Below, piece after piece: positions 5,204 to 43,794 of a DNA stretch of 64,000 bases. The translations under genes were made by a program, and so were the position numbers. Under the pieces are notes generated by a model. The model made no database searches and was not told where the DNA came from. It was given only the letters and a program-made list of their open reading frames with translations. Each line of letters opens with the position of its first letter. The stretch's first letter is position 1. Source of the DNA: a virus. The DNA is taken from the IMG/VR virus record IMGVR_UViG_3300044825_000714, positions 1-64,000 of that record; one strand, written 5' to 3'.

Positions 5204-7549
5204 ATGCCGCTTCAGAAAATCCTTTTCAAACCCGGAGTCAACCGCGAGAACACGCGGTATACGACCGAAGGCGGGTGGTACGACTGCGACAAGGTTCGCT
5301 TTCGCCAAGGCACGCCAGAAAAGGTGGGCGGTTGGGAACGCATCTCTGCCTACACCTACGAAGGCGTGTGTCGTTCGCTGTGGACTTGGGGCACGATCAC
5401 CAACCCCACGGTACTCACGGGCGTGGGCACCAACAAGAAGTTTTACATTGCAGAGGGCGGCGCGTACAACGACATCACGCCGATCCGCGACTATGAAGGG
5501 CCGCTAAGCAATCCGTTTGCTGCTACCACCGGGTCCACGACGATCACAGTCACTGACAACGCGCATGGATGCCAGACGGGCGACTACGTGACGTTCCTCG
5601 GGGCGCAAGCGCTGAGTACGCAGACTTTCACGCGGTCCTCGGCTACGGACTTTGTCCTGTCCACGGCGCTGGCGAACAACACCCCGGTACTGCTGTCTGT
5701 TTCTGCTGGCGGGTCTTTGCCGACCGGCTTGCTCACGGGGGTGCAGTATTTTGTGAAGGTGGTCTCGGGCACCACGATTAACTTTACCAACGTGGTGGAC
5801 GGCGCGGCGATTAACACCACCACGGCGGGTTCGGGAACGTTCTCTCTGGAAGTGAACCAAGGCATCACCTCGGCGGTACTCAACCAGAACTTCGAAGTCA
5901 CCGTCGTCAACACCAACAGCTACACGATTCAAAGCCCGGTGGCTGCGACGGCCTACGATGTGGGCGGGGGCGGCACGTCTGTCTACGCGGCTTACGAAGT
6001 TCCCACGGGCAGCGAGATTGTCACACCGCTCAGTGGTTGGGGCGCTGGCACTTGGAGTTCCGGTCCGTGGGGCATCGGCACTACGACGCTGATCGGTGCG
6101 CGGCTTTGGTATCAGAACAACTTTGGTGAAGACCTCATCTTCGGGTATCGGGGCGGCGCTCTGTACTACTGGAATGCCAAGATTGGCGTGACGCCCGAAG
6201 TCTTCACAGTGACGATTGCCTCTCCAGCGGTGGTGACGTTTGCCAGTTCAGAGTTGGTGGACGGCACAGCAGTGGTGCTGGAAACGACGGGCGCGCTGCC
6301 CACGGGCCTCACGGTGGGTACGGTCTACTACGTGCGCAACGCCTCGGGCAGCACCTGTAATCTATCGGCTACACCCAGCGGCGCGCTGATCAACACGTCG
6401 GGCTCTCAGTCTGGCACGCACTACGTGTCGCCTCGCGGCATCCCGGTCACGAGTTTGGCAGGCGCGTCGGACGTGCCGACGGTGGTCAACAACATGATCG
6501 TCTCGGATGTGAGTCGGTTCGTGATTGCGTTTGGCTGCAACCCGCTGGGCGAGACAGTCGTGGACCCGATGCTCATTCGTTGGTCGGATCAGGAATCGGT
6601 GGTGGACTGGACGCCTTCGTCCACAAACCAAGCGGGCGGCGTGCGGCTGTCGCACGGCTCGGAGATTCGTACAGGCGTTCAGTCCCGGCAAGAAGTGCTG
6701 GTCTACACCGACGCGGCGCTGTACTCGCTGCAATACCTTGGGCCTCCGTTTGTTTGGGGTGCGCAGCTTCTGGGCGATAACATCTCGATTGCCGGAGTGA
6801 ACACCGCCATCGTTGCGTCGGGCGTTGCGTACTGGATGGGCGTGGACAAGTTCTACCGCTACGATGGGCGCGTTCAGACCCTGCGTTGTGATCTTCGCCA
6901 GTACATCTACAACGATATCAACCTCGACCAGCAGGACTTGTTCTTCGCGGGGACCAACGAGGGCTTCAACGAGGTCTGGTGGTTTTACTGCTCATCTGGC
7001 TCCACCGTGGTGGATCGCTACGTCGTCTACAACTACGCCGAGGACATCTGGTACTACGGCACGATGGGGCGCACTGCATGGGTGGACTCGGGGCTGAACC
7101 AGTATCCGGTGGGTGCGACGTACGCCAACAATCTTGTGTATCACGAGCTTGGCGTGGACGACAACGTCTCTGGGACCCCCGTGGCGATTGACTCGTACAT
7201 CACCTCGTCGCAGTTCGACATTGGTGACGGCCACGCGTTTGGCTTTATCTGGCGTTTGATTCCAGACATCACATTCCGTGGCTCGACTGCGGCCAGCCCC
7301 CAAGTCACCATGACGCTGCTGCCCCTGCAAAACTCAGGCTCAGGCTACAACTCGCCGCCTTCTGTCGGCGGGGTGGACAACGCCTCTGTGGTGCGCAGCG
7401 CCACGGTCCCGATAGAACAGTTCACGGGGCAGGTCTACATCCGGGTGCGTGGGCGGCAGATGTCGTTCAAGGTGGCGGGCAACCAGCTTGGCCTTCAGTG
7501 GCAGCTTGGCGCGCCGCGTATCGACATCAAGCCTGATGGGAGGAGATGA
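5204..7549 (+). CDS. Large virion protein (tail hub / gp10-like, tentative)
   Basis: A 781-residue protein. The N-terminus (MPLQKILFKPGVNRENTRY, then GGWYDCDKVRFRQGTPEKVGGW) is characteristic of a large structural protein of P22-like and environmental podoviruses. The rest is beta-rich with propeller-like repeats and a segment VVDRYVVYNYAEDIWYYG. By size and place it could be the tail-closing protein analogous to P22 gp10, but this rests on architecture and position. No enzyme motif is seen. Confidence 0.7.
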   Translation: MPLQKILFKPGVNRENTRYTTEGGWYDCDKVRFRQGTPEKVGGWERISAYTYEGVCRSLWTWGTITNPTVLTGVGTNKKFYIAEGGAYNDITPIRDYEGPLSNPFAATTGSTTITVTDNAHGCQTGDYVTFLGAQALSTQTFTRSSATDFVLSTALANNTPVLLSVSAGGSLPTGLLTGVQYFVKVVSGTTINFTNVVDGAAINTTTAGSGTFSLEVNQGITSAVLNQNFEVTVVNTNSYTIQSPVAATAYDVGGGGTSVYAAYEVPTGSEIVTPLSGWGAGTWSSGPWGIGTTTLIGARLWYQNNFGEDLIFGYRGGALYYWNAKIGVTPEVFTVTIASPAVVTFASSELVDGTAVVLETTGALPTGLTVGTVYYVRNASGSTCNLSATPSGALINTSGSQSGTHYVSPRGIPVTSLAGASDVPTVVNNMIVSDVSRFVIAFGCNPLGETVVDPMLIRWSDQESVVDWTPSSTNQAGGVRLSHGSEIRTGVQSRQEVLVYTDAALYSLQYLGPPFVWGAQLLGDNISIAGVNTAIVASGVAYWMGVDKFYRYDGRVQTLRCDLRQYIYNDINLDQQDLFFAGTNEGFNEVWWFYCSSGSTVVDRYVVYNYAEDIWYYGTMGRTAWVDSGLNQYPVGATYANNLVYHELGVDDNVSGTPVAIDSYITSSQFDIGDGHAFGFIWRLIPDITFRGSTAASPQVTMTLLPLQNSGSGYNSPPSVGGVDNASVVRSATVPIEQFTGQVYIRVRGRQMSFKVAGNQLGLQWQLGAPRIDIKPDGRR

Positions 7550-19505: not shown

Positions 19506-19726
19506 GCGATACGCCAAGCCCGCACACCGAGGACATCGTCCTCTGTGCGGGTGTATACCTTCATCTTGTAGCCCTGCTTCTTCGCCGCCGTGTCGATCAC
19601 GTAGGACATGTAAGCGGGTTGCATTGTCGGGATGAAGAAGCTGTCCCCGACCCCCATGCCGGGGAACGGGAATATCCAGACAGGCTCGTCATACGACAGG
19701 TTCTGCGGGGGCGGCTTCTTGCTCAT
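19502..19726 (-). CDS. Small conserved phage protein
   Basis: A 74-residue protein MSKKPPPQNLSYDEPVWIFP followed by GMGVGDSFFIP and Y.MKVYTRTEDDVLGVRAWRIA. The ATG at 19726 is preferred over 19756 because the SKKPPP start is natural. It overlaps the primase 3' end by 38 nt. The compact beta-rich fold with a C-terminal VRVWRI-type end recurs in phages beside replication genes. Function unknown. Its TAG stop shares CTAG with the giant ejection gene on the other strand. Confidence 0.7.
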   Translation of the reverse strand: MSKKPPPQNLSYDEPVWIFPFPGMGVGDSFFIPTMQPAYMSYVIDTAAKKQGYKMKVYTRTEDDVLGVRAWRIA

Positions 19727-22544
19727 TTTGGAAGAGATGCGAAACGTCCATCGCAATTTCGTACGCTTGCACGTTGGTTGACCCTAGCGCATCGCGCCAG
19801 CCAGCCGCCATCTGTTTGCGCACTTTCTCGCGCAGAATGCCCGCCTTGGACAGCCGGGTCTCAAACTGCTTGATGTCCATCTTGATGTCTTTGAGGTACT
19901 GCTTCATCGCAGAAGTCGAGACGTAGATCAGGCCGTTATCCACCTCAGCACGGATCAGCAGCGGGCCACGGGGTTCAGTCGTGACCTTGCCCTCGCGCAC
20001 TACCAGACAACTCTGGATGTTCTTGTTGATGAAGTCACCCAGCGTGTCGGAGCGGTTGTTCTCGTCATCGGCGCGCTTGCCAGCAATCACGTCGTCAAAG
20101 TGCTTGCCCACCACGTCAAAGATGCGGTCAAGGTCGAACGACACGATGCCCAACTGATTGATGATCTCGCCTGCGACCCGAGGCAGTGAGATTAGGTTAG
20201 ACAGAAAGCGGTACTCGGCATTGGCCGAATAGTGTTCAGCCACACGCAGATATTCTTTCTTGGCGCGCGTGCGTATCTCCTCGACCCCAAGCCTGAAGAG
20301 TTCCTTAACGTAGATGGGACCGGCGTGGCCGTAGTTGAACTTCAGGGGATCAAACATCTCCACACCGCGTTCCATGGTCAGTTCGTACCCCGGCACACTT
20401 GGCTTGCCCACTTCCGGCTCCAGCAGACGGACGTTCTCGGCAGCGTTGTTGGCCTTGTGCTCAGACAGAATGCTGCGCATCGGCTTGTTGGTCGTCATGA
20501 TGGCGATCAGCCGAGAGTTGTACGCCGCTTCGCGTTCCTGATTGTTAGAAGCCATCAGACGAATCTTCGATTTGCCTGAGCTAATGTTGTACAGAAGTGG
20601 GGAGACGACATCGGATTTGAGGTTCCCCTGTTCGTCCAAGCCATACACGATGTTCTTACTGGTGATCATCCGCTGCACCAGACCGTTGCCCGTGCCCTCG
20701 TAGACCGACAACTGCTCCGGGTTGCCCCAGATACTGAGCGCGCCGTACAACGCCCCGGTCTTGCCGGTGCCGGGGCCTTCGCTGTACAGCGAGAGAGTTA
20801 CGCCGTTGACGTTACTCAACTCCATCAGTGGCGACGCGAACCCGCACAGGACGGTGAACGCATGCAGTTCGTAGCCCGGATCGTTGAACATCTGAATGCA
20901 CTGCTGCCATATCTCGTAGTTGCCCTTTTCGTGGATGTGGCGCACAACGCCCTTGGACATGGGAGACGGCGGGCAGTACCGCTCTTCGCCAGCGGTTATC
21001 TCTCGGGTGCCGATAACAAAAGACTTGAGGTCTTCAGTCCAGCCTTGCTGAACGCGCATGGTGTCCGCGCGCCCGGTCTCCATCAGGTAAGCAGTCCATT
21101 TCATGAGGTAACTCGCTAGTCTGGGGGCCACATTTGGCTCAAACACAACTCCGTTAGATGCCAGCGTGGCGCGCAGCTTGTCTAACGACGCAACGTCCCG
21201 CAGTGGTAGGAGAAACTCCCGGCTGGCGTCTTGTGGCAGGCGCAGATACATCAACAAGCATTCGCCATCGTGCGGGCTGTAGATGCGCTTGATCGGGAAG
21301 ACATCGTTCGGAGTAAGTAGCTCCGGGTCGTCTTGGATCAGCTTTCCCTTTTTGTCTCGTCGGGGAGGTGGGGTGTAGTAGATGCCTCCGTTGACTCCAC
21401 GGCTGTAGGGTAGGAGGAAGTCTGGGAAGAAAACATCTTCGGGACCCTGCGGACTCCGAATTGGTTCCTCTTCATCTTCGGCTTCTGCGACGAACTGAGC
21501 TTCGGCGGTTTTGAGTACTTTTCCAAGGTCAATCGGTCCTGTAATTTGTCCACGGTAGGGGCACCCTTCGCATCCAGCGCGGTTCTCTTTAGCGAACGCT
21601 TCACACCCGTGCGCCCAGTTGGCTTCGCGCAGAGACTGCGCTGCCTTCAGTTCTGTCTCGTCGTACGAATAGCCGGGGTAGTCCTCAGACATCTGGTGGA
21701 TAGCCGTCGCCCCATCCCGGCAACGCACCGCCACGGAGATGCCCGCGTACCATAACGGTTCAGGGCACTCTGAAGCGTTCTCTAAGATGTACTTGATCTG
21801 CGCACAGCCATCGCCCTCCAGACTCGTGGTGGCGATCCTGCCAAAGTCATACTCAAAGTTGCCGTTGCGCTTGTCGTAGATGGCCTTGGTGTCTTCGTCC
21901 AGACCGCGCTCCACATCGCGCAGATCAAACTTCTTCTGTACGTTGCCCAGCGCAGGCTTGAGTTCTTCAAAGTCGTAGGTGTAGACCTCGGTCAGCATCG
22001 TCGATGCCGTAGGAGGGTCATACCGGTAGTTCATCGTTCCCGGCACGCGCATCAACCGCGCAGAGTCGGCAGGCACAGCCTCGTCGATGATCATGCCCTT
22101 CTCGACGCACAACTGCTTGAACTTCTCCGCGTAGAGCGTCCAGTCTTCGGCGGGCAGCGCCTCGTTGAGAATCCAGTACGCGTGGATGCCCCCTCCCGAG
22201 TCAATCAGTACGGGCATCGGCCAGTCGATCTCTTGGCAGAATCGCTGGAGGTCTTCTACCGCTGCCTGCTTCGACTCGTAGCGGTTCTTGCCATGCTCTA
22301 CGTCAAGGTCGAGAAAGAATGACTTCACGTACAGGCACTCAGCCTGTCGTCGGCGGTTGCCGGAGTACGTCCCCGGCGTGAAGTACACGTTGTACTTCTG
22401 TTTGATGAAATTTTGCGCTACGGTCAGCGCAGCTTCGATGTCGGAGGGGAACCTCGGAATCGTTGTACCGTCATCGGGCCGGATAGCCGCGATACACAAA
22501 TTCCCCTGCGTCGGAAATACTTTCTCGAAAAATTCTTTGTTCAT
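19689..22544 (-). CDS. Primase-helicase (AEP primase fused to DUF927-type helicase)
   Basis: A 951-residue protein. The N-terminal archaeo-eukaryotic primase domain shows FFLDLD (catalytic D79, D81) and DSGGGIHAYW (H121). A cysteine cluster with HGCEAF...AGCEGCPY (313-328) could bind zinc. The C-terminal half is a DUF927-like ATPase with Walker A GPGTGKT (590-596) and Walker B VYGLDEQG (D637, E638). It should make primers and unwind DNA at the fork. It ends the leftward replication operon but for one small gene. Confidence 0.88.
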   Translation of the reverse strand: MNKEFFEKVFPTQGNLCIAAIRPDDGTTIPRFPSDIEAALTVAQNFIKQKYNVYFTPGTYSGNRRRQAECLYVKSFFLDLDVEHGKNRYESKQAAVEDLQRFCQEIDWPMPVLIDSGGGIHAYWILNEALPAEDWTLYAEKFKQLCVEKGMIIDEAVPADSARLMRVPGTMNYRYDPPTASTMLTEVYTYDFEELKPALGNVQKKFDLRDVERGLDEDTKAIYDKRNGNFEYDFGRIATTSLEGDGCAQIKYILENASECPEPLWYAGISVAVRCRDGATAIHQMSEDYPGYSYDETELKAAQSLREANWAHGCEAFAKENRAGCEGCPYRGQITGPIDLGKVLKTAEAQFVAEAEDEEEPIRSPQGPEDVFFPDFLLPYSRGVNGGIYYTPPPRRDKKGKLIQDDPELLTPNDVFPIKRIYSPHDGECLLMYLRLPQDASREFLLPLRDVASLDKLRATLASNGVVFEPNVAPRLASYLMKWTAYLMETGRADTMRVQQGWTEDLKSFVIGTREITAGEERYCPPSPMSKGVVRHIHEKGNYEIWQQCIQMFNDPGYELHAFTVLCGFASPLMELSNVNGVTLSLYSEGPGTGKTGALYGALSIWGNPEQLSVYEGTGNGLVQRMITSKNIVYGLDEQGNLKSDVVSPLLYNISSGKSKIRLMASNNQEREAAYNSRLIAIMTTNKPMRSILSEHKANNAAENVRLLEPEVGKPSVPGYELTMERGVEMFDPLKFNYGHAGPIYVKELFRLGVEEIRTRAKKEYLRVAEHYSANAEYRFLSNLISLPRVAGEIINQLGIVSFDLDRIFDVVGKHFDDVIAGKRADDENNRSDTLGDFINKNIQSCLVVREGKVTTEPRGPLLIRAEVDNGLIYVSTSAMKQYLKDIKMDIKQFETRLSKAGILREKVRKQMAAGWRDALGSTNVQAYEIAMDVSHLFQNEQEAAPAEPVV

Positions 22545-35451: not shown

Positions 35452-35816
35452 TTCAATTCCTCCGGCACGTCTACCTCGTCACCGAGTTGGCTTGCCACAT
35501 AGCAGCGCATCGCTGCGATTAGGACGGTCGGCCCATCCATGCAGAACGTCCGGTTCAAGCCCCCGAGACTTGGCTTTCGTGCGCCGTACTGGTGGGCCTT
35601 GTCAGAAGCGGGTAGCCATTGCCACTCGATCTTTTCACGCTCAATGATCGGGCCGCCTTGTGCCCAGTCGTCAGAGAAGTGGAACATAGGCTCAATGAAG
35701 TCGTGATACAGCAGCACAAACTGCTCTGCGTCTTCAAAACAGATCTCGTCGTTCATACCCTCACACTTCGCCACCGCCCAATCAAGGGCGGCCCCGGTCA
35801 GTTCACTTGTCTTCAT
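35448..35816 (-). CDS. NinX-like protein (DUF2591)
   Basis: A 122-residue protein beginning MKTSELTGAALDWAVAKCEG, a DUF2591/NinX signature, with YHDFIEPMFHFSDDWAQGGP, WLPASDKAHQYGA and GPTVLIAAMRCYVASQLGDE downstream. In lambda-like phages the family is encoded in the nin region; function is unknown. ATG 35816 lies inside the VWA gene stop (ATGA). Confidence 0.82.
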   Translation of the reverse strand: MKTSELTGAALDWAVAKCEGMNDEICFEDAEQFVLLYHDFIEPMFHFSDDWAQGGPIIEREKIEWQWLPASDKAHQYGARKPSLGGLNRTFCMDGPTVLIAAMRCYVASQLGDEVDVPEELK

Positions 35817-37063
35817 TTCTCCACCACAACTTTCTGCCCAGCGGGCGGGGTCCAAGTCTTGTTCGCTGTCACCAACCACAGGGTCGGCACGTTGATGTCC
35901 CACTTGATGTTGTTCTCCACGAACCCATCGGTGAACACGATCACACACTCAGCCTTGATCTCATGCTTGTTGATGTGACGGCTCACGCAGCCCACCTCGG
36001 TACCCCCGCCGCCCAGCGGCTTCAAGAGTTGCCCGATCTGGTCGTACTTCTCAGGCGTAAACAACTGCTCACCGTGGACCATCGTGTCCCACCACAGGAC
36101 GCGCACCGCCTCGGGCGTGACGACAGAACAGATAGATGCCAGTTCCGAGGCGAACTCGTTGATCTGCGCCTGACCAATCGATCCCGACGTATCAATCGCC
36201 ACGACAACCTCGCCTATCGTCTCAGCCTCGACTGAAGGCAAATACAAGTCATTGGGCAACTGACGACGGTTGAACTTGCGCCACGTGTATTCATCCTTGC
36301 CCGAGCACGACGCGGACACGAACTCGGACAACTCCTTGCGCCAGTCAACGCTTGGCTCAAGCAACTCTTGGATCTGCCGGGGCAGCTTCAGACCCAGCCG
36401 CCCAGCCAGCAACGCACCTTCGCGCATCGCCCGGTCAATCTGGCTCTCCAGAGCTTGAGCTTCCTCGACAGAGCCGGGGCCACCGCTGATGTCGTGCTCG
36501 TCGAACTGATAGGGATCAGCTTTGCCGCCGTTGCCGGGACCGGGCTGGCCTTGACCGCCACCGTCCTCACCGTCGCCATCTTGCGGTTCACCCTCGGATG
36601 AAGTCTTATCTTTCTCCTGCTCCTGCTGCTCTTGTTCAAGGATCGAGTACACCTGCCGCATGTTCATGTTGTGGAACCTCGGGTCGTGCAGTCCCCCCTT
36701 GGGCAGCGTGATGAACTTCTTGTCGTTGATCGACATGATCACGTCGTTGACCACATAGTCTGCCGCCATGTTGGCGAGTTGTTTGTTCTTGTTGAACAGA
36801 TCACGACTGTGCAGCAGATGACGGAACGCAATGTGCAAGTTCTCGTGCAGGATCAGGCCACGCAGATCAGAGTCCTCTGCGCAGACCGCCTCGATGAACG
36901 CCCTGCCGTACTTCTTGTTCACGCCGTCGGTGTACGCAGTCACTTGACTGTCCACGACCTCGGTCTCGCCCATCATCATCACGCCCGAATAGAACGCAGT
37001 CTCGGGGTGCTTCATCATGGACACGTGCGCACGCTTGATGCGCTGCTCGGTTGTCAGTTCCAT
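35813..37063 (-). CDS. VWA/metallopeptidase-like protein (DUF2201-type)
   Basis: A 416-residue protein. The N-terminal HExxH-like site is ILHENLHIAFRH (H73-H77). A disordered Gly/Gln-rich acidic linker (EEQEQEKDKTSSEGEPQDGDG region) follows. The C-terminal von Willebrand A domain has a MIDAS start VVVAIDTSGSIG and later GGGGTEV and VIVFTDGFV. This layout matches the partners of MoxR/CobS-type ATPases. The MoxR gene lies two genes upstream. The pair probably remodels or inserts metal into a target, as in chelatases; the target is unknown. Confidence 0.82.
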   Translation of the reverse strand: MELTTEQRIKRAHVSMMKHPETAFYSGVMMMGETEVVDSQVTAYTDGVNKKYGRAFIEAVCAEDSDLRGLILHENLHIAFRHLLHSRDLFNKNKQLANMAADYVVNDVIMSINDKKFITLPKGGLHDPRFHNMNMRQVYSILEQEQQEQEKDKTSSEGEPQDGDGEDGGGQGQPGPGNGGKADPYQFDEHDISGGPGSVEEAQALESQIDRAMREGALLAGRLGLKLPRQIQELLEPSVDWRKELSEFVSASCSGKDEYTWRKFNRRQLPNDLYLPSVEAETIGEVVVAIDTSGSIGQAQINEFASELASICSVVTPEAVRVLWWDTMVHGEQLFTPEKYDQIGQLLKPLGGGGTEVGCVSRHINKHEIKAECVIVFTDGFVENNIKWDINVPTLWLVTANKTWTPPAGQKVVVEK

Positions 37064-37158
37064 CACTTCCTCCAGATAAAAACGTCCAGCAGTAGGACGA
37101 TCAGAGCGGCAGCAAAGGCTGCCCGCTCCACCTTTTCGTACAGGGTTAGTTTTCTCAC
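37063..37158 (-). CDS. Single-TM micropeptide
   Basis: A 31-residue protein starting GTG 37158: RKLTLYEKVERAAFAAALIV, LLLDVFIWRK. It overlaps the upstream stop as GTGA and the next start as TGATG, so it is embedded in the coupled chain. One hydrophobic helix; function unknown. Confidence 0.55.
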   Translation of the reverse strand: MRKLTLYEKVERAAFAAALIVLLLDVFIWRK

Positions 37159-37421
37159 TCATCCCCCAAACCCACGACCCACTCAGTCATGGAAAGTTTC
37201 TTGGTACGCAGCTTCATCTTCTTGGTGATGCGCACATGGCAATTGAATGCTTTGATCATCGCGTTACCCGACGGAGTGTTCTCGCGGGGGTCGGTCTGAA
37301 TCAGCATCCACTTCTGTTTCTGAAGCATGGCGAACCAAGCATCGTGGTCTATCACCAGCTTTACTGGCGGATACACAGCCTGCGCCTCCAACAATTCGGT
37401 GGGCACTTCGCTCCATTTCAT
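37155..37421 (-). CDS. Hypothetical protein
   Basis: An 88-residue alpha/beta protein (MKWSEVPTELLEAQAVYPPV, WFAMLQKQKWMLIQTDPRE, FNCHVRITKKMKLRTKKLS). Between the MoxR ATPase and its VWA partner, so it may be part of that system. No family recognised. Confidence 0.6.
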   Translation of the reverse strand: MKWSEVPTELLEAQAVYPPVKLVIDHDAWFAMLQKQKWMLIQTDPRENTPSGNAMIKAFNCHVRITKKMKLRTKKLSMTEWVVGLGDE

Positions 37422-37429
37422 CCCTCACC

Positions 37430-38500
37430 TCACAGCATGTAGTTGTTGGCTGCAGCCCAGTTGGTGATCTCTTGGTTGAAACGCGCCAGCTTGGGTTTGC
37501 TGCGCAGCATCATCGTAAAGAACAGCGACTGCACCTCGCCACGCGGGATGCGATTCACGAACTTCATATAAGCGTTCAGGTCATCCTGAGTCTTAAGATA
37601 GTCACACGCCTCCAGCATCATCATGATCAGCGCCGAGGTGTCATCGGGCACGGGGGTTGTGTCCGGGGACTTGATGATGTCAGCAGTCAGGGTGAGCTTG
37701 CTCTCCAGCGCAATGAACGCAGCCATCGACTTCGCAGCAGCCTCACCGATGGTGCCGGCCAAGCCCACCGCCAGAGCGTTCTCCGTGATCTGAGACTTCC
37801 TCTTCACAAACACATCGCACTTCGCCAGGGAGCGGGGCGACACGAACTGCCGACCCTTCTGGCTGGGCTTGAAGATGTACGGGTTGTCGTCCTGATCACC
37901 GTCCAGATACGACGCGAACGCCTTGGGGTTCATCGCCGCCCACGCACGGATCGGACGCGCAATGCCCTGCTTGCTGGCCCAGTCGTTCCACTCATCAAAG
38001 TTGGGCTTGCGCATCTCCACCTTGCACACCCGGTTGCCAGCGTGGTCGAGCATCGCATCACCTACTCCATCGCTCGTATTGTTCGACGTGGCAAACACAA
38101 TGCTTCCTTCAGGCAGGGGCACGTCGCCCACAGTCCGCTCCAGCATCAGCCGGGTGAAGATCACCTGCAGCAGCTTGGGTGCCTTCATGAACTCGTCGAG
38201 CATGATCACCTTCTTCTTGCCGTTGCCCAGCTTGAAGAGACTGGAGACGTAGTACTCAAGGGACTTGGTCTCGTGGTTGGGGATCGACGCAGCAATGTCC
38301 ATCATGTCCTTGACCGGGCAGTCAACGTAGATGAAGTCGTAGTCGTCCTCGCCCATCTCAGCGCGCAGGGTGTTCAGGATCGAGGACTTGCCCACGCCCG
38401 GTTCGCTGATGACGATGTGGGTGATCTGGTCGCCCATGATCTTGATCATGTCTTTGACTTCGCTGATGGACGCGGTCATGCGGAAATTTACTTTGCTCAT
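37430..38500 (-). CDS. MoxR/CobS-like AAA+ ATPase
   Basis: A 356-residue ATPase. Walker A SEPGVGKSS (about 32-40), Walker B VIMLDEFMK (about 94-102), sensor 1 IVFATSNN and an arginine region DHAGNRVCKVEM. The order is that of CbbQ/NorQ/MoxR proteins. It lies near the VWA/HExxH gene and the DUF3150 gene. Such ATPases act on VWA partners to mature or remodel metalloenzymes. In a phage the target is unknown. Confidence 0.88.
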   Translation of the reverse strand: MSKVNFRMTASISEVKDMIKIMGDQITHIVISEPGVGKSSILNTLRAEMGEDDYDFIYVDCPVKDMMDIAASIPNHETKSLEYYVSSLFKLGNGKKKVIMLDEFMKAPKLLQVIFTRLMLERTVGDVPLPEGSIVFATSNNTSDGVGDAMLDHAGNRVCKVEMRKPNFDEWNDWASKQGIARPIRAWAAMNPKAFASYLDGDQDDNPYIFKPSQKGRQFVSPRSLAKCDVFVKRKSQITENALAVGLAGTIGEAAAKSMAAFIALESKLTLTADIIKSPDTTPVPDDTSALIMMMLEACDYLKTQDDLNAYMKFVNRIPRGEVQSLFFTMMLRSKPKLARFNQEITNWAAANNYML

Positions 38501-38527
38501 GGCTTTCTCTCGGTTGGTTGATCAACG

Positions 38528-38545
38528 GTTCAGGGTGGGGTGAGG
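38528..38545. repeat. Palindromic 18-nt element, copy 1 (degenerate)
   Basis: GTTCAGGGTGGGGTGAGG in the leader of the MoxR gene, related to the family CTTCAGG-N4-CCTGAAG. The right arm is decayed. Confidence 0.45.
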
Positions 38546-38547
38546 CT

Positions 38548-38748
38548 TTATCTCACCATGGAATTCACAAGCTCGTCCAGGGACTTCGCTGACGCTTTGA
38601 TCTCGTAGCCCAGCTTCTTGATCTGGGCGAGAGTATCTTCGGTCAGGGTCTTCGTGCCTGCAATCGCAGCGAACGCTTTCGCGTTCTCGCACGATGGGTA
38701 GTACACCCACTTGCCGTACTTCGGCTCGATGATGACTTCAATCTTCAT
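38548..38748 (-). CDS. Hypothetical small protein
   Basis: A 66-residue alpha/beta protein (MKIEVIIEPKYGKWVYYPSC, AIAGTKTLTEDTLAQIKKLGYEIKA). Short enzyme-like or binding fold. ATGA overlap with the gene upstream. Function unknown. Confidence 0.65.
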   Translation of the reverse strand: MKIEVIIEPKYGKWVYYPSCENAKAFAAIAGTKTLTEDTLAQIKKLGYEIKASAKSLDELVNSMVR

Positions 38749-38978
38749 TTCGCTTTCTCCTTGTGTTTGCGCAGAGCTTCTCGCCCCGCATCGGTTAATC
38801 TATCCACGGCGATCAGGTTCCCGTCCGAGCGCCGCACAGTCTTACCCGATGAGAGTAGTCCACGCCTGCGCAGTGACCAGTACGTGTTCCAACTCCCGGG
38901 CTTGTCGTTGTACATCTTGAATCCCCAGCCCTTCTCAAACATGCACAGCATGGAGATTTGTTTAGGGCTCAGGGTCAT
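38745..38978 (-). CDS. Winged-helix-like protein
   Basis: A 77-residue protein MTLSPKQISMLCMFEKGWGF, NTYWSLRRRGLLSS, DGNLIAVDRLTDAGREAL. The order helix-helix-(L.RRGLL)-wing-LTDAGREAL is that of compact winged helices. Probable DNA-binding regulator. Confidence 0.65.
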   Translation of the reverse strand: MTLSPKQISMLCMFEKGWGFKMYNDKPGSWNTYWSLRRRGLLSSGKTVRRSDGNLIAVDRLTDAGREALRKHKEKAK

Positions 38979-38979
38979 C

Positions 38980-39144
38980 TCATTTCATCTCCTCAACGGA
39001 TTCAACTTCCCATGTGGCATGGCCCGTGTCGGCTCGGTTGTCCAACTCTTTCCACGCTAGCTCTTCAGCCTCGTCTTGGGTTTCTGCCTGCACAGCGATC
39101 ACGATGTAGCTCGTGCGGCGCAGTTCAACTTCAAAGGTCTTCAT
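38980..39144 (-). CDS. Small acidic beta/alpha protein
   Basis: A 54-residue protein MKTFEVELRRTSYIVIAVQA, ETQDEAEELAWKELDNR, ATWEVESVEEM. This ferredoxin-like order (strand, helix EAEELA, strand) is common in tiny phage proteins. Stop 1 nt from the next start. Confidence 0.65.
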   Translation of the reverse strand: MKTFEVELRRTSYIVIAVQAETQDEAEELAWKELDNRADTGHATWEVESVEEMK

Positions 39145-39147
39145 GGT

Positions 39148-40074
39148 TTACTCCTCGTCGGTAGTTAAAGTCAAAGGGGCGAACTTGCTCAAAATGTCAT
39201 CGAGGCCATCCTTGACCTGAGCACGCGCCGAGGGCGACTCGCGCAGGTCGTCCAGCGTAATCCCGTCCAGCGTCTGCTCCAGCTTCATCCGGGCCTGTTC
39301 TAATTCTTGGTTGCCAGTCAGGTTGAAGTTACGCAGCAGGTCGATCATCCCCTTGGCCTGATTCACCGTGCTCTCGTAGATGCGCTTGCGCTTAACCTTC
39401 CCTTCATCGTCAGCCTGAACCTCAATACAGGCGTTACGCAGTCGGCTGGCGTACTCGATGAGTTGGTCCGTCGCATCGCCCATCACACGCTCGATGATGT
39501 CCTTGGTCTGCTGCTCGTAGTGGTTCTTCAGATCATCAGCCAGCGCCTGAGCGATCCCGCCCGAGCGGAAGTCACCAGCGGGCACCGTGGTTGTGATCAA
39601 CTTCATACGGAACTTGCGCCGCACATCTTTCACGTCAGGGTACTCTGAACGGTCAAACATGTCGCCCTGCTTGAACGCAGCGTCAGAGACAAGGCTCGGG
39701 TACGCCTGTTCGAACTCGTCCAAGAGCTTGCTGAACGTCGCTTCATGCTCGGCATACTCCTTCTTGAACTGCTCCAGTCGGAAGGTCGGCAGCAGGCGCA
39801 TCGACCCGGCCCAGTCATAGGTGCATCGCTGCAGCCAGTTGTACACAGTCTGCCGATGGTTCAAAAGCGCTTTGTGTTGGGGGCAGTTGGCCAGCAGGTG
39901 CTTGGTGAACTTGCCAGCGTCTGCAGAGGCATTCTTCTGCAGCGTGACCTCGTTGGAGATCTGCTTGTCCTGCTTGGTCGCAGTCCAGACGTTGACCTCG
40001 GCGCTGACGATGAGAGCGGAGGAAGACAGCGAGATCAGGTGCTGCGGGGCAGTGAGGGAGATTGGTGCGTTCAT
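39148..40074 (-). CDS. DUF3150 protein, partner of MoxR/VWA genes
   Basis: A 308-residue helical protein: NVWTATKQDKQISNEVTL, KFTKHLLANCPQHKALLNHRQTV, then long helices with RRKFRMKLITTTVPAGDF, ending in coiled coil. DUF3150 genes recur beside MoxR-type ATPases and VWA proteins in phages. It is therefore likely to act with 37430-38500 and 35813-37063. Confidence 0.75.
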   Translation of the reverse strand: MNAPISLTAPQHLISLSSSALIVSAEVNVWTATKQDKQISNEVTLQKNASADAGKFTKHLLANCPQHKALLNHRQTVYNWLQRCTYDWAGSMRLLPTFRLEQFKKEYAEHEATFSKLLDEFEQAYPSLVSDAAFKQGDMFDRSEYPDVKDVRRKFRMKLITTTVPAGDFRSGGIAQALADDLKNHYEQQTKDIIERVMGDATDQLIEYASRLRNACIEVQADDEGKVKRKRIYESTVNQAKGMIDLLRNFNLTGNQELEQARMKLEQTLDGITLDDLRESPSARAQVKDGLDDILSKFAPLTLTTDEE

Positions 40075-40736: not shown

Positions 40737-40754
40737 CTTCAGGGTGGCCTGAAG
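40737..40754. repeat. Palindromic 18-nt element, copy 4
   Basis: CTTCAGG (40737-40743), GTGG, CCTGAAG (40748-40754). A perfect 7-bp palindrome in a promoter-leader cassette. Confidence 0.7.
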
Positions 40755-41102: not shown

Positions 41103-41453
41103 TTACAGAACGTCGTAGCCGGTGCAGAACCGGAACAACTCGACCTCGTCCATCGGGGCGGTGATCGTCAGCCCGTCGTACTCGTTGTCAACGTCGTGGA
41201 AGGCATCGGCGTGCTCCCCTGCGGTTTCGAGGTTGACGAGGTAGGCGTCATCCACCCGGTACTCGATGTTGGCCAGATGTTTGTCCACCGCTTCAGGCAA
41301 GGCTGAGGCGTTGTTCGTGGGCTTGGTCCTCTGGGTTGCGAGGCGCAACGTCTTGCGCATGGGGCGGGGGAAGGCAGCGTGATGCGCTGTGGCATCGGTG
41401 GAGGAGGAGGAGGAGGTGGGGGGCCAAGAAGTGGAAACAAACGATGCGTTCAT
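41103..41453 (-). CDS. Hypothetical protein
   Basis: A 116-residue protein. Ser/Thr-rich, probably disordered N-terminus (MNASFVSTSWPPTSSSSSTD), then a folded helical part (EAVDKHLANIEYRVDDAYLV, ETAGEHADAFHDVDNEYDG). Start 41453 follows ACCGGAGAAAGC, a leader shared with neighbours. Function unknown. Confidence 0.65.
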   Translation of the reverse strand: MNASFVSTSWPPTSSSSSTDATAHHAAFPRPMRKTLRLATQRTKPTNNASALPEAVDKHLANIEYRVDDAYLVNLETAGEHADAFHDVDNEYDGLTITAPMDEVELFRFCTGYDVL

Positions 41454-41482: not shown

Positions 41483-41500
41483 CTTCAGGGTACCCTGAAG
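41483..41500. repeat. Palindromic 18-nt element, copy 5 (perfect)
   Basis: CTTCAGGGTACCCTGAAG is an 18-bp perfect palindrome in the leader of the gene at 41103-41453. Confidence 0.75.
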
Positions 41501-41572: not shown

Positions 41573-41770
41573 GTCTTTGTGTAAAAAAGTTAGATGGGGA
41601 GCCGGCGGGAGCTGGAATCGCTGAGCGTAGAAAAAGCTTTTGCTTAAAGTTCGTTTGGGGGTGTTTTTGTAAGTTTCGCGTAAATCGAAGAAAGTATTCA
41701 AATTTCACATTATGGTGAAAATATGTAAAGAGTGTCAGAATAGGGTTGGAACTGGAACAAAAATTGGAAC

Positions 41771-41779
41771 TGTGGATAA
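41771..41779 (-). other. DnaA box (R1/R4 type)
   Basis: TGTGGATAA is the complement of TTATCCACA, the perfect host DnaA box. Confidence 0.65.
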
Positions 41780-41833
41780 GAGGAAAAGTGAAGAAAAAGA
41801 TCAATGAAATCAATAGGATAGAGAGTAGTGTAG

Positions 41834-41842
41834 TGTGTATAA
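41834..41842 (-). other. DnaA box (R2 type)
   Basis: TGTGTATAA is the complement of TTATACACA, the oriC R2-type box, in the same orientation as the box 63 nt to its left. Confidence 0.6.
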
Positions 41843-42181
41843 GTTGTTGATATTCCATATTCCAGCTTTTTTTAAAGAACGGCGGGTTGCGGACCGTCTT
41901 TTTTTTGCCTATTTTTTAAGCACCTGCAAAACAGCCCTTGCGATCACGAAACTCTCCAAAGTCCAGCTTTACACAAAACTGCTGGAATCTTGGAATTTTG
42001 GAATTTTTCAGGCAAAAACCTAATAAAATCAAGCACTTACGCGGTTCCAATTTTGGAATCGTGGTCAAAATGACTTGGAACGCTGGAACTTAGTCTTCAC
42101 TAACTTCCAATGAGAAATTCCAAGATTCCAACTCGATTCCAATTCCGCTGGAACAAATTCCAATTGGCTGGAACGGCGGGA

Positions 42182-42199
42182 CTTCAGGCTACCCTGAAG
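42182..42199. repeat. Palindromic 18-nt element, copy 6
   Basis: CTTCAGGCTACCCTGAAG, 7-bp arms, followed by TGTTAAATA. No promoter of the TTGAYT type is seen beside it. Confidence 0.7.
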
Positions 42200-42341: not shown

Positions 42342-42959
42342 TTAGGTGTTATACACCTTCCAGAAGGCATCGACCGCCATCCGGAACTTCACAGGGTCGG
42401 CTGTCGAGTCCGACAGAGTGCGAGATTGCGCAACCTTCACTCGCTTGTCGAGTGCGGCAAAGGCATCTTTCAGGGCCTCCGCGAATACCTTGTTTTGGGC
42501 ACGCTCTTTCGGAGCGTCTCCATTCACGATCCGCTTGCAGGCACTACGCAGGTCAGCCATGCAATTGCTGGCGTACTTAGAGAATTTCTCACGCCATTGT
42601 TTGACAATGGAGTGCAGGGCCGGATTCTCTTCCTTGAGCTTGCCGTAGGATTGTGCTGTGTACGCCATGGCCACATTCACATCGATGCTGATGCCGCCAT
42701 CTGCCGCAGGGATCAAGGTACCACCCTCACCCAGCCGGAAGGCTTGTGCTCCCCAGAGTTCGTGAGCACGAAGCTGGAAGCCAGCGAAGAGTTCAGCCTT
42801 CACTTCCGCCGGACAATCGTCGAGGAAGTCCGGGCACTGCTCCAGCACGAACTGAGCGATTGCCTTGCGGCCCTCACCGATCTGCGCGGTTTGATACCCG
42901 GCATCTTTGAGGGAGCGGGGAGCGACAGCCTGTTGCACAGGGGTTTGTTTTGCTTTCAT
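42342..42959 (-). CDS. Duplicated phage protein of unknown function, copy A
   Basis: A 205-residue soluble protein MKAKQTPVQQAVAPRSLKDA, then DFLDDCPAEVKAELFAGFQLR, a variable segment (residues 70-92), ISIDVNVAMAYTAQSYGKL, and a helical C-terminus SKYASNCMADLRSACKRI, TADPVKFRMAVDAFWKVY. It is about 78% identical to copy B and the same length. It has its own promoter, leader hairpin and terminator, as expected for an abundant product. No family is recognised. Confidence 0.8.
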   Translation of the reverse strand: MKAKQTPVQQAVAPRSLKDAGYQTAQIGEGRKAIAQFVLEQCPDFLDDCPAEVKAELFAGFQLRAHELWGAQAFRLGEGGTLIPAADGGISIDVNVAMAYTAQSYGKLKEENPALHSIVKQWREKFSKYASNCMADLRSACKRIVNGDAPKERAQNKVFAEALKDAFAALDKRVKVAQSRTLSDSTADPVKFRMAVDAFWKVYNT

Positions 42960-43176: not shown

Positions 43177-43794
43177 TTAGCCGTTGTAGACTTTCCAGAA
43201 CGCGTCAACCGCCATGCGGTATTTAACCGGGTCAGCAGTCGAGTCGGTCAACGTACGGGCCTGCGCTACTTTCACCCGTTTATCGAGTGACGCGAACGCA
43301 TCCTTCAGCGCCTCAGCGAATGTCTTATTGGATGCCCGTTCACGCGGCGTGTCTTCGTTCAGGATACGCTTACACGCCGTTCTCAAGTCTGCCATGCAGT
43401 TGCTAGCGTACTTGCTGAAGCGGTCGCGCCAGACGCGAATCAGACCATGCAGCGCCGGGTTTTCATCCTTCAGTTTCCCGTAGGACTGCGCGGTATAGGC
43501 CATGGCGACGTTCACGTCGATATTGATCCCGCCGTTCGGGTCTTCAATCAGCGCGCCCGTATCGCCGTTGCGGTAGGTCTTGCTGCCCCAAAGTTCGTTC
43601 GCGCGCAGTTGAAAACCCGCGAACAATTCCTCTTTCACCTCTTTCGGGCAGTCGTCCAGAAACGTCGGGCATTGCTGCAGGACGTACTGCGCTACCGCTT
43701 TGCGGCCTTCGCCCAGTTGGGCGGTCTGGTAACCCGCATCCTTCAGAGAACGGGGGGACACTGCGGCCTGGATGGCCGTTTGCTTTGCTTTCAT
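43177..43794 (-). CDS. Duplicated phage protein of unknown function, copy B
   Basis: A 205-residue protein, paralogue of copy A. Differences cluster at residues 70-92 (SKTYRNGDTGALIEDPN against AQAFRLGEGGTLIPAAD). The blocks LDDCPxEVKxELFAGFQLRA, DVNVAMAYTAQSYGKLK and DSTADPVK are conserved. Monocistronic with its own promoter, leader hairpin and terminator. Function unknown. A gene-dosage or divergent-function duplication is possible. Confidence 0.8.
   Translation of the reverse strand: MKAKQTAIQAAVSPRSLKDAGYQTAQLGEGRKAVAQYVLQQCPTFLDDCPKEVKEELFAGFQLRANELWGSKTYRNGDTGALIEDPNGGINIDVNVAMAYTAQSYGKLKDENPALHGLIRVWRDRFSKYASNCMADLRTACKRILNEDTPRERASNKTFAEALKDAFASLDKRVKVAQARTLTDSTADPVKYRMAVDAFWKVYNG

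Follow-up and report, generated by a model that had tools for sequence, protein, structure and literature searches.

The question raised by this locus is whether a gene-free stretch of about 0.45 kb, at 41.74-42.18 kb of the virus record IMGVR_UViG_3300044825_000714, is the place where a phage starts to replicate its DNA. The whole stretch of DNA that was analysed, 64,000 nucleotides (nt) long, is called the window below. A sequence-only reading had proposed a replication origin here on account of a cluster of short repeats (TGGAA or its complement TTCCA, called iterons below) and two DnaA boxes in an AT-rich gap. Comparative evidence from related phages goes beyond the motif count and supports this proposal, and judging from the sequences compared we consider it very probable that the region at 41.74-42.18 kb is the phage replication origin.

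The count of repeats is exact: 41747-42173 holds 19 copies of TGGAA/TTCCA. About 0.9 copies per region would be expected by chance from the density of the whole window (126 in 64 kb), and dinucleotide shuffling of this AT-rich region gave a mean of 2.0 copies and a maximum of 8 (n=2000). When 440-nt stretches were compared, the density across the window peaks here, and the runner-up non-overlapping cluster in the 64.5-kb record has only 5 copies. The region is also more AT-rich than its surroundings, as had been claimed, with a GC content of 0.398 compared with 0.571 for the window. The claim that it holds no supported gene stands as well, because the 62-residue open reading frame at 41835-42023 is interrupted by stops in relative L003 (92% identical); no conserved open reading frame was found in the region, the small ones not being kept in the comparison with L003. 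The features of the region are as follows, where IHF stands for integration host factor.

41747-41769, plus strand: iteron set A, three TGGAA at 41747, 41753 and 41765; copies left of the AT-rich element are likewise forward in relatives
41771-41779, minus strand: DnaA box of R1 type, TGTGGATAA (minus-strand reading TTATCCACA)
41780-41852, no strand: AT-rich interval with a TAG-containing tract, 31.5% GC
41834-41842, minus strand: DnaA box of R2 type, TGTGTATAA (minus-strand reading TTATACACA)
41840-41852, minus strand: IHF consensus site, TATCAACAACTTA (consensus WATCAANNNNTTR)
41853-41864, minus strand: iteron set B, two inverted TGGAA at 41853 and 41860; right-hand copies are likewise reverse in relatives
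41983-42003, plus strand: iteron set C, three TGGAA with 8-nt spacing, TTGGAATC TTGGAATT TTGGAATT
42027-42039, plus strand: IHF consensus site, AATCAAGCACTTA, inside the conserved element AAATCAANNACTTAC
42045-42173, both orientations: iteron sets D and E, eleven TGGAA

These features form two blocks. In the first, set A is forward, the interval 41780-41852 follows and set B is reverse, an arrangement homologous to that of the relatives; the interval is a candidate DNA unwinding element. In the second block, set C is forward and is followed by an IHF site and then by copies of mixed orientation up to 42173.

The motif count in related phages had been named as a check, and there the clusters recur at the same place, with pentamers better conserved than their surroundings. 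The relatives are 80 loci from a search with the terminase (TerL), and a cluster was defined as at least 9 copies in 450 nt. Including the window, 32 loci pass this threshold, 22 of TGGAA type and 10 of TAGAA type (extended to TAGAACA); as loci were chosen for having clusters, their number is no evidence. Among the loci that were mapped with the region covered, the clusters occupy the equivalent place, with the same pair of gene families on their two sides, and they carry 10-20 copies of TGGAA or, in other clades, of TAGAACA. The usual order is forward iterons, AT-rich element (0-30% GC in the TGGAA type) and reverse iterons. To read the layout, the most AT-rich repeat-free 40-mer of each locus was picked and the nearest two repeats on each side were taken. 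In TGGAA-type loci, the left repeats were 41 forward and 1 reverse, and the right repeats were 36 reverse and 5 forward; for the window, the automatic choice landed just left of set A. The commonest spacing of neighbouring same-strand copies in the relatives is 8 nt. The bases of the repeat words outdo their surroundings in conservation in all 19 alignable locus pairs (for example, 0.94 against 0.80 and 0.97 against 0.82). Between the window and L003, all 95 pentamer bases are identical, compared with 326 of 350 bases outside the pentamers. For TerL relatives in cultured phages (023Pt_psg01, HTVC027P, DSL-LC04 and MinM2), the cluster was not found in the stretches examined; the annotation of 023Pt_psg01 has a separate 'primase' gene.

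The IHF sites, as well as the inverted iteron sets around the AT-rich interval and the flanking palindromes described below, are additions to the sequence-only reading. With the consensus WATCAANNNNTTR taken from PMC10380432, only two full matches exist in the window and both are within the cluster. There are 28 consensus sites in the 32 kb of cluster regions compared with 21 in 445 kb outside, with 0 for the reversed control, and 23 of the 31 related loci have one. For the stricter element AATCAANNNCTTA[CG], the cluster regions gave 24 matches and the 445 kb outside gave none. The candidacy of AAATCAANNACTTAC as a novel origin element was dropped, as it matches the IHF consensus in full; a good copy of AAATCAANNACTTAC was not found in P4 or phage Ab18.

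The two DnaA boxes had been described as being of R1/R4 and R2 type, in the same orientation and 63 nt apart. Types, positions, orientation and distance were all verified; the boxes are the sole matches to TTATNCACA in the window, and shuffles of the region never yielded two of them. In the cluster regions of the 31 relatives, 18 boxes were observed compared with 1.3 in shuffles. As a mark of the origin, the boxes stood up in being present and enriched but not in being constant: they occur at 14 of the 31 loci (12 of 21 of TGGAA type and 2 of 10 of TAGAA type), mostly in one clade. On the sequences at hand, the iterons and the IHF site are more widespread than the DnaA boxes, which are not a constant part of the locus, and a facultative dependence on host DnaA is plausible. 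Runs of TAG resembling DnaA-trios number 12 in the clusters and 3 outside. In the basal unwinding system, the rule is a DnaA box, a spacer of up to 16 bp and DnaA-trios (PMC8287927). This system was not adopted, since in relatives having both elements the TAG runs and the DnaA boxes are separated by more than 16 bp. The DnaA box at 41834-41842 of the window is abutted by a tract with TAG, of uncertain polarity.

An origin of this kind calls up the question of its initiator, for which we propose the following protein.

19689-22544, minus strand: 951-residue PrimPol-DUF927 primase-helicase, the putative initiator

Its DUF927 domain was detected with an E-value of 1.7e-24, and a profile search with the protein returned the helicases of Staphylococcus aureus pathogenicity islands (SaPIs) and of SCCmec among solved structures. 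The predicted model (mean pLDDT 75) has its best matches in SCCmec Cch (5dgk, E 8.7e-19) and SaPIbov1 Rep (8tch, E 2e-15), the N-terminus matches the AEP domain of S-2L PrimPol (6zp9, E 9e-8), and the model suggests a winged-helix-like end (832-931), with low to medium confidence. In SaPI Rep, the C-terminal domain recognises the origin iterons, and SaPIbov1 Rep has a relative in Cch, which contains DUF927 (PMC7581432). From fold and family, we infer that the 951-residue protein binds TTGGAAY iterons.

The reading as an origin is based on the conserved position, the selection on the repeats, the AT-rich element between inverted sets, the IHF sites and the iteron-binding helicase family. Our best reading is an origin of theta type, which would be opened by the phage primase-helicase together with IHF and, facultatively, host DnaA. 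The helicase would bind the TTGGAAY iterons via its C-terminal domain, perhaps with two hexamers placed head to head on the inverted sets, and IHF would bend the DNA and draw the iteron sets together. Where boxes occur, host DnaA would help to melt the AT-rich interval. The helicase would then load itself, and its PrimPol domain would supply primers for elongation by the family-A DNA polymerase of the phage (27726-29606).

Several points weigh against an origin with this initiator. The loci are related by descent, so the counts are non-independent, and 17 of the 31 are without DnaA boxes. The gene of the proposed initiator is about 20 kb from the origin (19689-22544 compared with 41.7-42.2 kb), whereas the origins of SaPIs and other phage-inducible chromosomal islands (PICIs) are directly 3' of rep and P4 crr is beside alpha. 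The GC skew, which had also been put forward as a check, is consistent with an origin but not decisive: the cumulative minimum is at most 4 kb from the cluster in 8 genomes, but it often coincides with the gene-strand switch before TerL and is thus confounded by gene strand and transcription. Finally, P2/phiCTX-like prophages pair the IHF-type element with repeats beside an integrase gene, and for this reason an IHF site and short repeats alone do not prove an origin. In these prophages (L185 at 5950-6850, L275, L246 and L182), GGTAATTTT repeats are found with the same IHF-type element, and L185 has the integrase gene on one side and the portal gene on the other. Repeats together with an IHF site can also mark an attachment site, and the GGTAATTTT repeats are probably integrase arm sites.

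The genome setting bears on what else the repeats could be. The record is that of a tailed phage in which the structural genes (terminase, portal and capsid) run rightward from about 45 kb, while the leftward genes, between about 44.5 and 19.5 kb, are the early and replication genes (PolA, SNF2 helicase, an ATPase/VWA pair and the DUF927 primase-helicase). The cluster belongs to this leftward block; its neighbours are a 117-codon gene (41103-41453) on one side and two 205-residue paralogues on the other, and it is flanked as follows.

41483-41500, no strand: palindrome CTTCAGGGTACCCTGAAG on the left flank; the leftward gene 41103-41453 starts about 30 nt downstream of it
42182-42199, no strand: right flanking palindrome CTTCAGGCTACCCTGAAG
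42342-42959, minus strand: 205-residue protein adjoining the putative origin, paralogue of 43177-43794
43177-43794, minus strand: 205-residue paralogue, with a confident predicted fold (pLDDT 87) and no PDB match

The palindrome TTCAGGSTACCCTGAA is found at 40737-40754, 41483-41500 and 42182-42199 (one copy degenerate). Copies lie on either side of the origin, and two leftward early genes each have one about 30 nt upstream. Palindromes of the TTCA-N8-TGAA type are on both flanks in 6 of 6 relatives checked, and TTCAGGSTACCCTGAA is a possible operator of a phage regulator. The two 205-residue genes are tandem paralogues, 78% identical, whose family adjoins the origin in most relatives. This family has no PHROG or Pfam family and no match in cultured phages. 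As an initiator, the neighbour was dropped, its fold being confident yet without a PDB relative.

From such a position within the leftward early block, with palindromes close to early gene starts on both sides, the repeats could be operators of a phage transcription factor for early genes, with the palindromes as its promoters, and cooperatively bound short repeats are also known from regulators. However, the repeats are not at one promoter but number 10-20 copies, in inverted sets that enclose a strongly AT-rich element, accompanied by IHF and DnaA sites. In the TAGAA clade, the IHF element is reversed with respect to the genes, and the one sigma-70-like match equals chance expectation. A regulatory array is therefore an unlikely account of the locus.

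It is still less probable that the boxes and the IHF site form a sink that titrates or inactivates host DnaA while replication starts elsewhere. The datA locus is likewise made of DnaA boxes and IHF sites, and the boxes are facultative across the relatives. On the other hand, there are only one or two boxes per locus, the 19 conserved iterons and the inverted sets around the AT-rich element would be left unexplained, and the genome is without any other iteron cluster.

Short repeats, both direct and inverted, occur together with an IHF site in partition sites such as P1 parS, and a centromere-like partition site or a packaging site can be imagined here in the same way. We give this very little chance: no ParA/ParB-like protein was seen among the proteins scanned (some open reading frames were outside the scan), TerL is about 3 kb off with other genes between, and an AT-rich element between inverted sets is a hallmark of origins. 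A structured non-coding RNA in which inverted TGGAA/TTCCA arms pair within a transcript is equally improbable and was dropped, for although the region has no conserved open reading frame and its minus strand folds better than shuffles (z -4.1, 0/100; plus strand z -2.7), inverted iterons alone would give such folding, copies are also in same-strand tandems at 8 nt, there is no Rfam match, and the conserved columns of the relatives are the pentamers, with no compensatory change evident by eye (alignment A5, uncounted).

The locus was compared with the closest known systems. In SaPI/PICI origins, the AT-rich region that melts is enclosed between a pair of short-iteron sets, a layout that sets A and B of the window fit, and their initiator is an MCM-like or D5-like Rep helicase, where the window phage encodes a DUF927 helicase with fold matches to 5dgk and 8tch. 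The differences are that the window belongs to a phage of about 64 kb, that its helicase is fused to PrimPol, that it has many more iterons and that IHF and DnaA sites are included. The crr of P4 has 8-bp type-1 repeats that resemble the window layout (two forward, a stretch of 31% GC, two reverse and one forward), and P4 alpha, like the protein of the window phage, combines primase and helicase. Unlike in the window, ori and crr of P4 are about 4.5 kb apart and the repeat is TGTTCACC; no IHF-type element was found near either of them. The origins of iteron plasmids (pSC101, P1, F, RK2 and R6K) contain iterons, an AT-rich element and DnaA boxes, and pSC101 needs IHF (PMC4980987). The window region shares this list of parts, namely iterons, AT-rich element, DnaA boxes and IHF sites. 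However, plasmid iterons are usually 17-22 bp compared with about 7 bp for the window repeat, and plasmids use a plasmid-type Rep, none of which was seen in the window phage, whose candidate is the phage primase-helicase.

The helicase and the IHF-type element can also be followed to other phages. The cultured phages Rollin (Pseudomonas) and RHph_TM27A (Rhizobium) encode the same primase-helicase family, with 26% and 22% identity, respectively. Both resemble the window in having a noncoding AT-rich region with an IHF-type element. In Rollin (OR577172, at about 0-1 kb), this region has TATGCAA iterons and an AT-rich stretch, and the element is the sole strict match in the genome. In RHph_TM27A, the element occurs once in the sequence read, and a k-mer scan gave no clear iteron; its annotation, like the window, includes ATPase, metallopeptidase, PolA and SNF2 genes. 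Both differ from the window in that TGGAA is replaced by TATGCAA (Rollin) or no iteron stands out clearly (RHph_TM27A), no DnaA box is in the AT-rich region and the records are without origin annotation. The candidate origin region of Rollin (L163) contains about 100 N at 987-1086, and this gap accounts for the zero-GC stretch that the scan gave there. When viral contigs were scanned for the pattern AAATCAAGCACTTAC, at least 120 matches were obtained, compared with 33 for the reversed pattern. Among the matches listed, 25 of 120 were within significant short-repeat clusters of several words, compared with 0 of 33 in the reversed control. Among those 25 listed, DUF927 was encoded by 4 of 5 records of at least 40 kb, compared with 0 of 20 control records; some of the 25 are the P2/phiCTX-like prophages described above. 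One of the 25, L206, combines TGGTATGA repeats and an AT-rich stretch with two IHF-type sites, and DUF927 is encoded in its record.

The iteron words across the phages are thus TGGAA, TAGAACA, TATGCAA and TGGTATGA. With rather less assurance than for the origin itself, we favour the view that this widespread phage lineage uses a hybrid origin, made of a PICI/P4-like core with host IHF and optional DnaA sites, in which the iteron word changed repeatedly while the layout and the IHF-type element stayed. In the core, inverted sets of short iterons would enclose the AT-rich element, and a phage PrimPol-DUF927 helicase encoded elsewhere would act on them. As the iteron word varies while the layout and the element persist, initiator specificity and iterons would co-evolve and could be decoded by comparison.

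In a literature search of open-licence papers, we found no origin description for phages of this lineage. The data offer an origin and initiator pair that can be tested, and the matched iteron and helicase sets in nature are material for learning how DUF927 helicases recognise DNA. They would also link phage-satellite origins with the origins of a large-phage family. Should DnaA truly contribute, possession of a primase-helicase would not free the phage from the initiator of its host, and its replication would be coupled to the cell cycle of the host.

Some minor observations concern the records and the neighbouring genes. A search of bacterial genomes for the host gave only two metagenome-assembled matches, one in a Rhodocyclaceae bin, by which the host is not established. 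The relative G002 (the record of L118) has 62438 bases with 75-base identical ends and is probably complete. At 35813-40074, there is a conserved module of three genes encoding an ATPase, a VWA-like protein and a 308-residue protein; the ATPase is of the MoxR family according to the MinM2 annotation, and the distant MinM2 homologue of the 308-residue protein is annotated as DUF3150. Directly after the capsid gene, 53512-54237 matches homing endonuclease families, one of them GIY-YIG.
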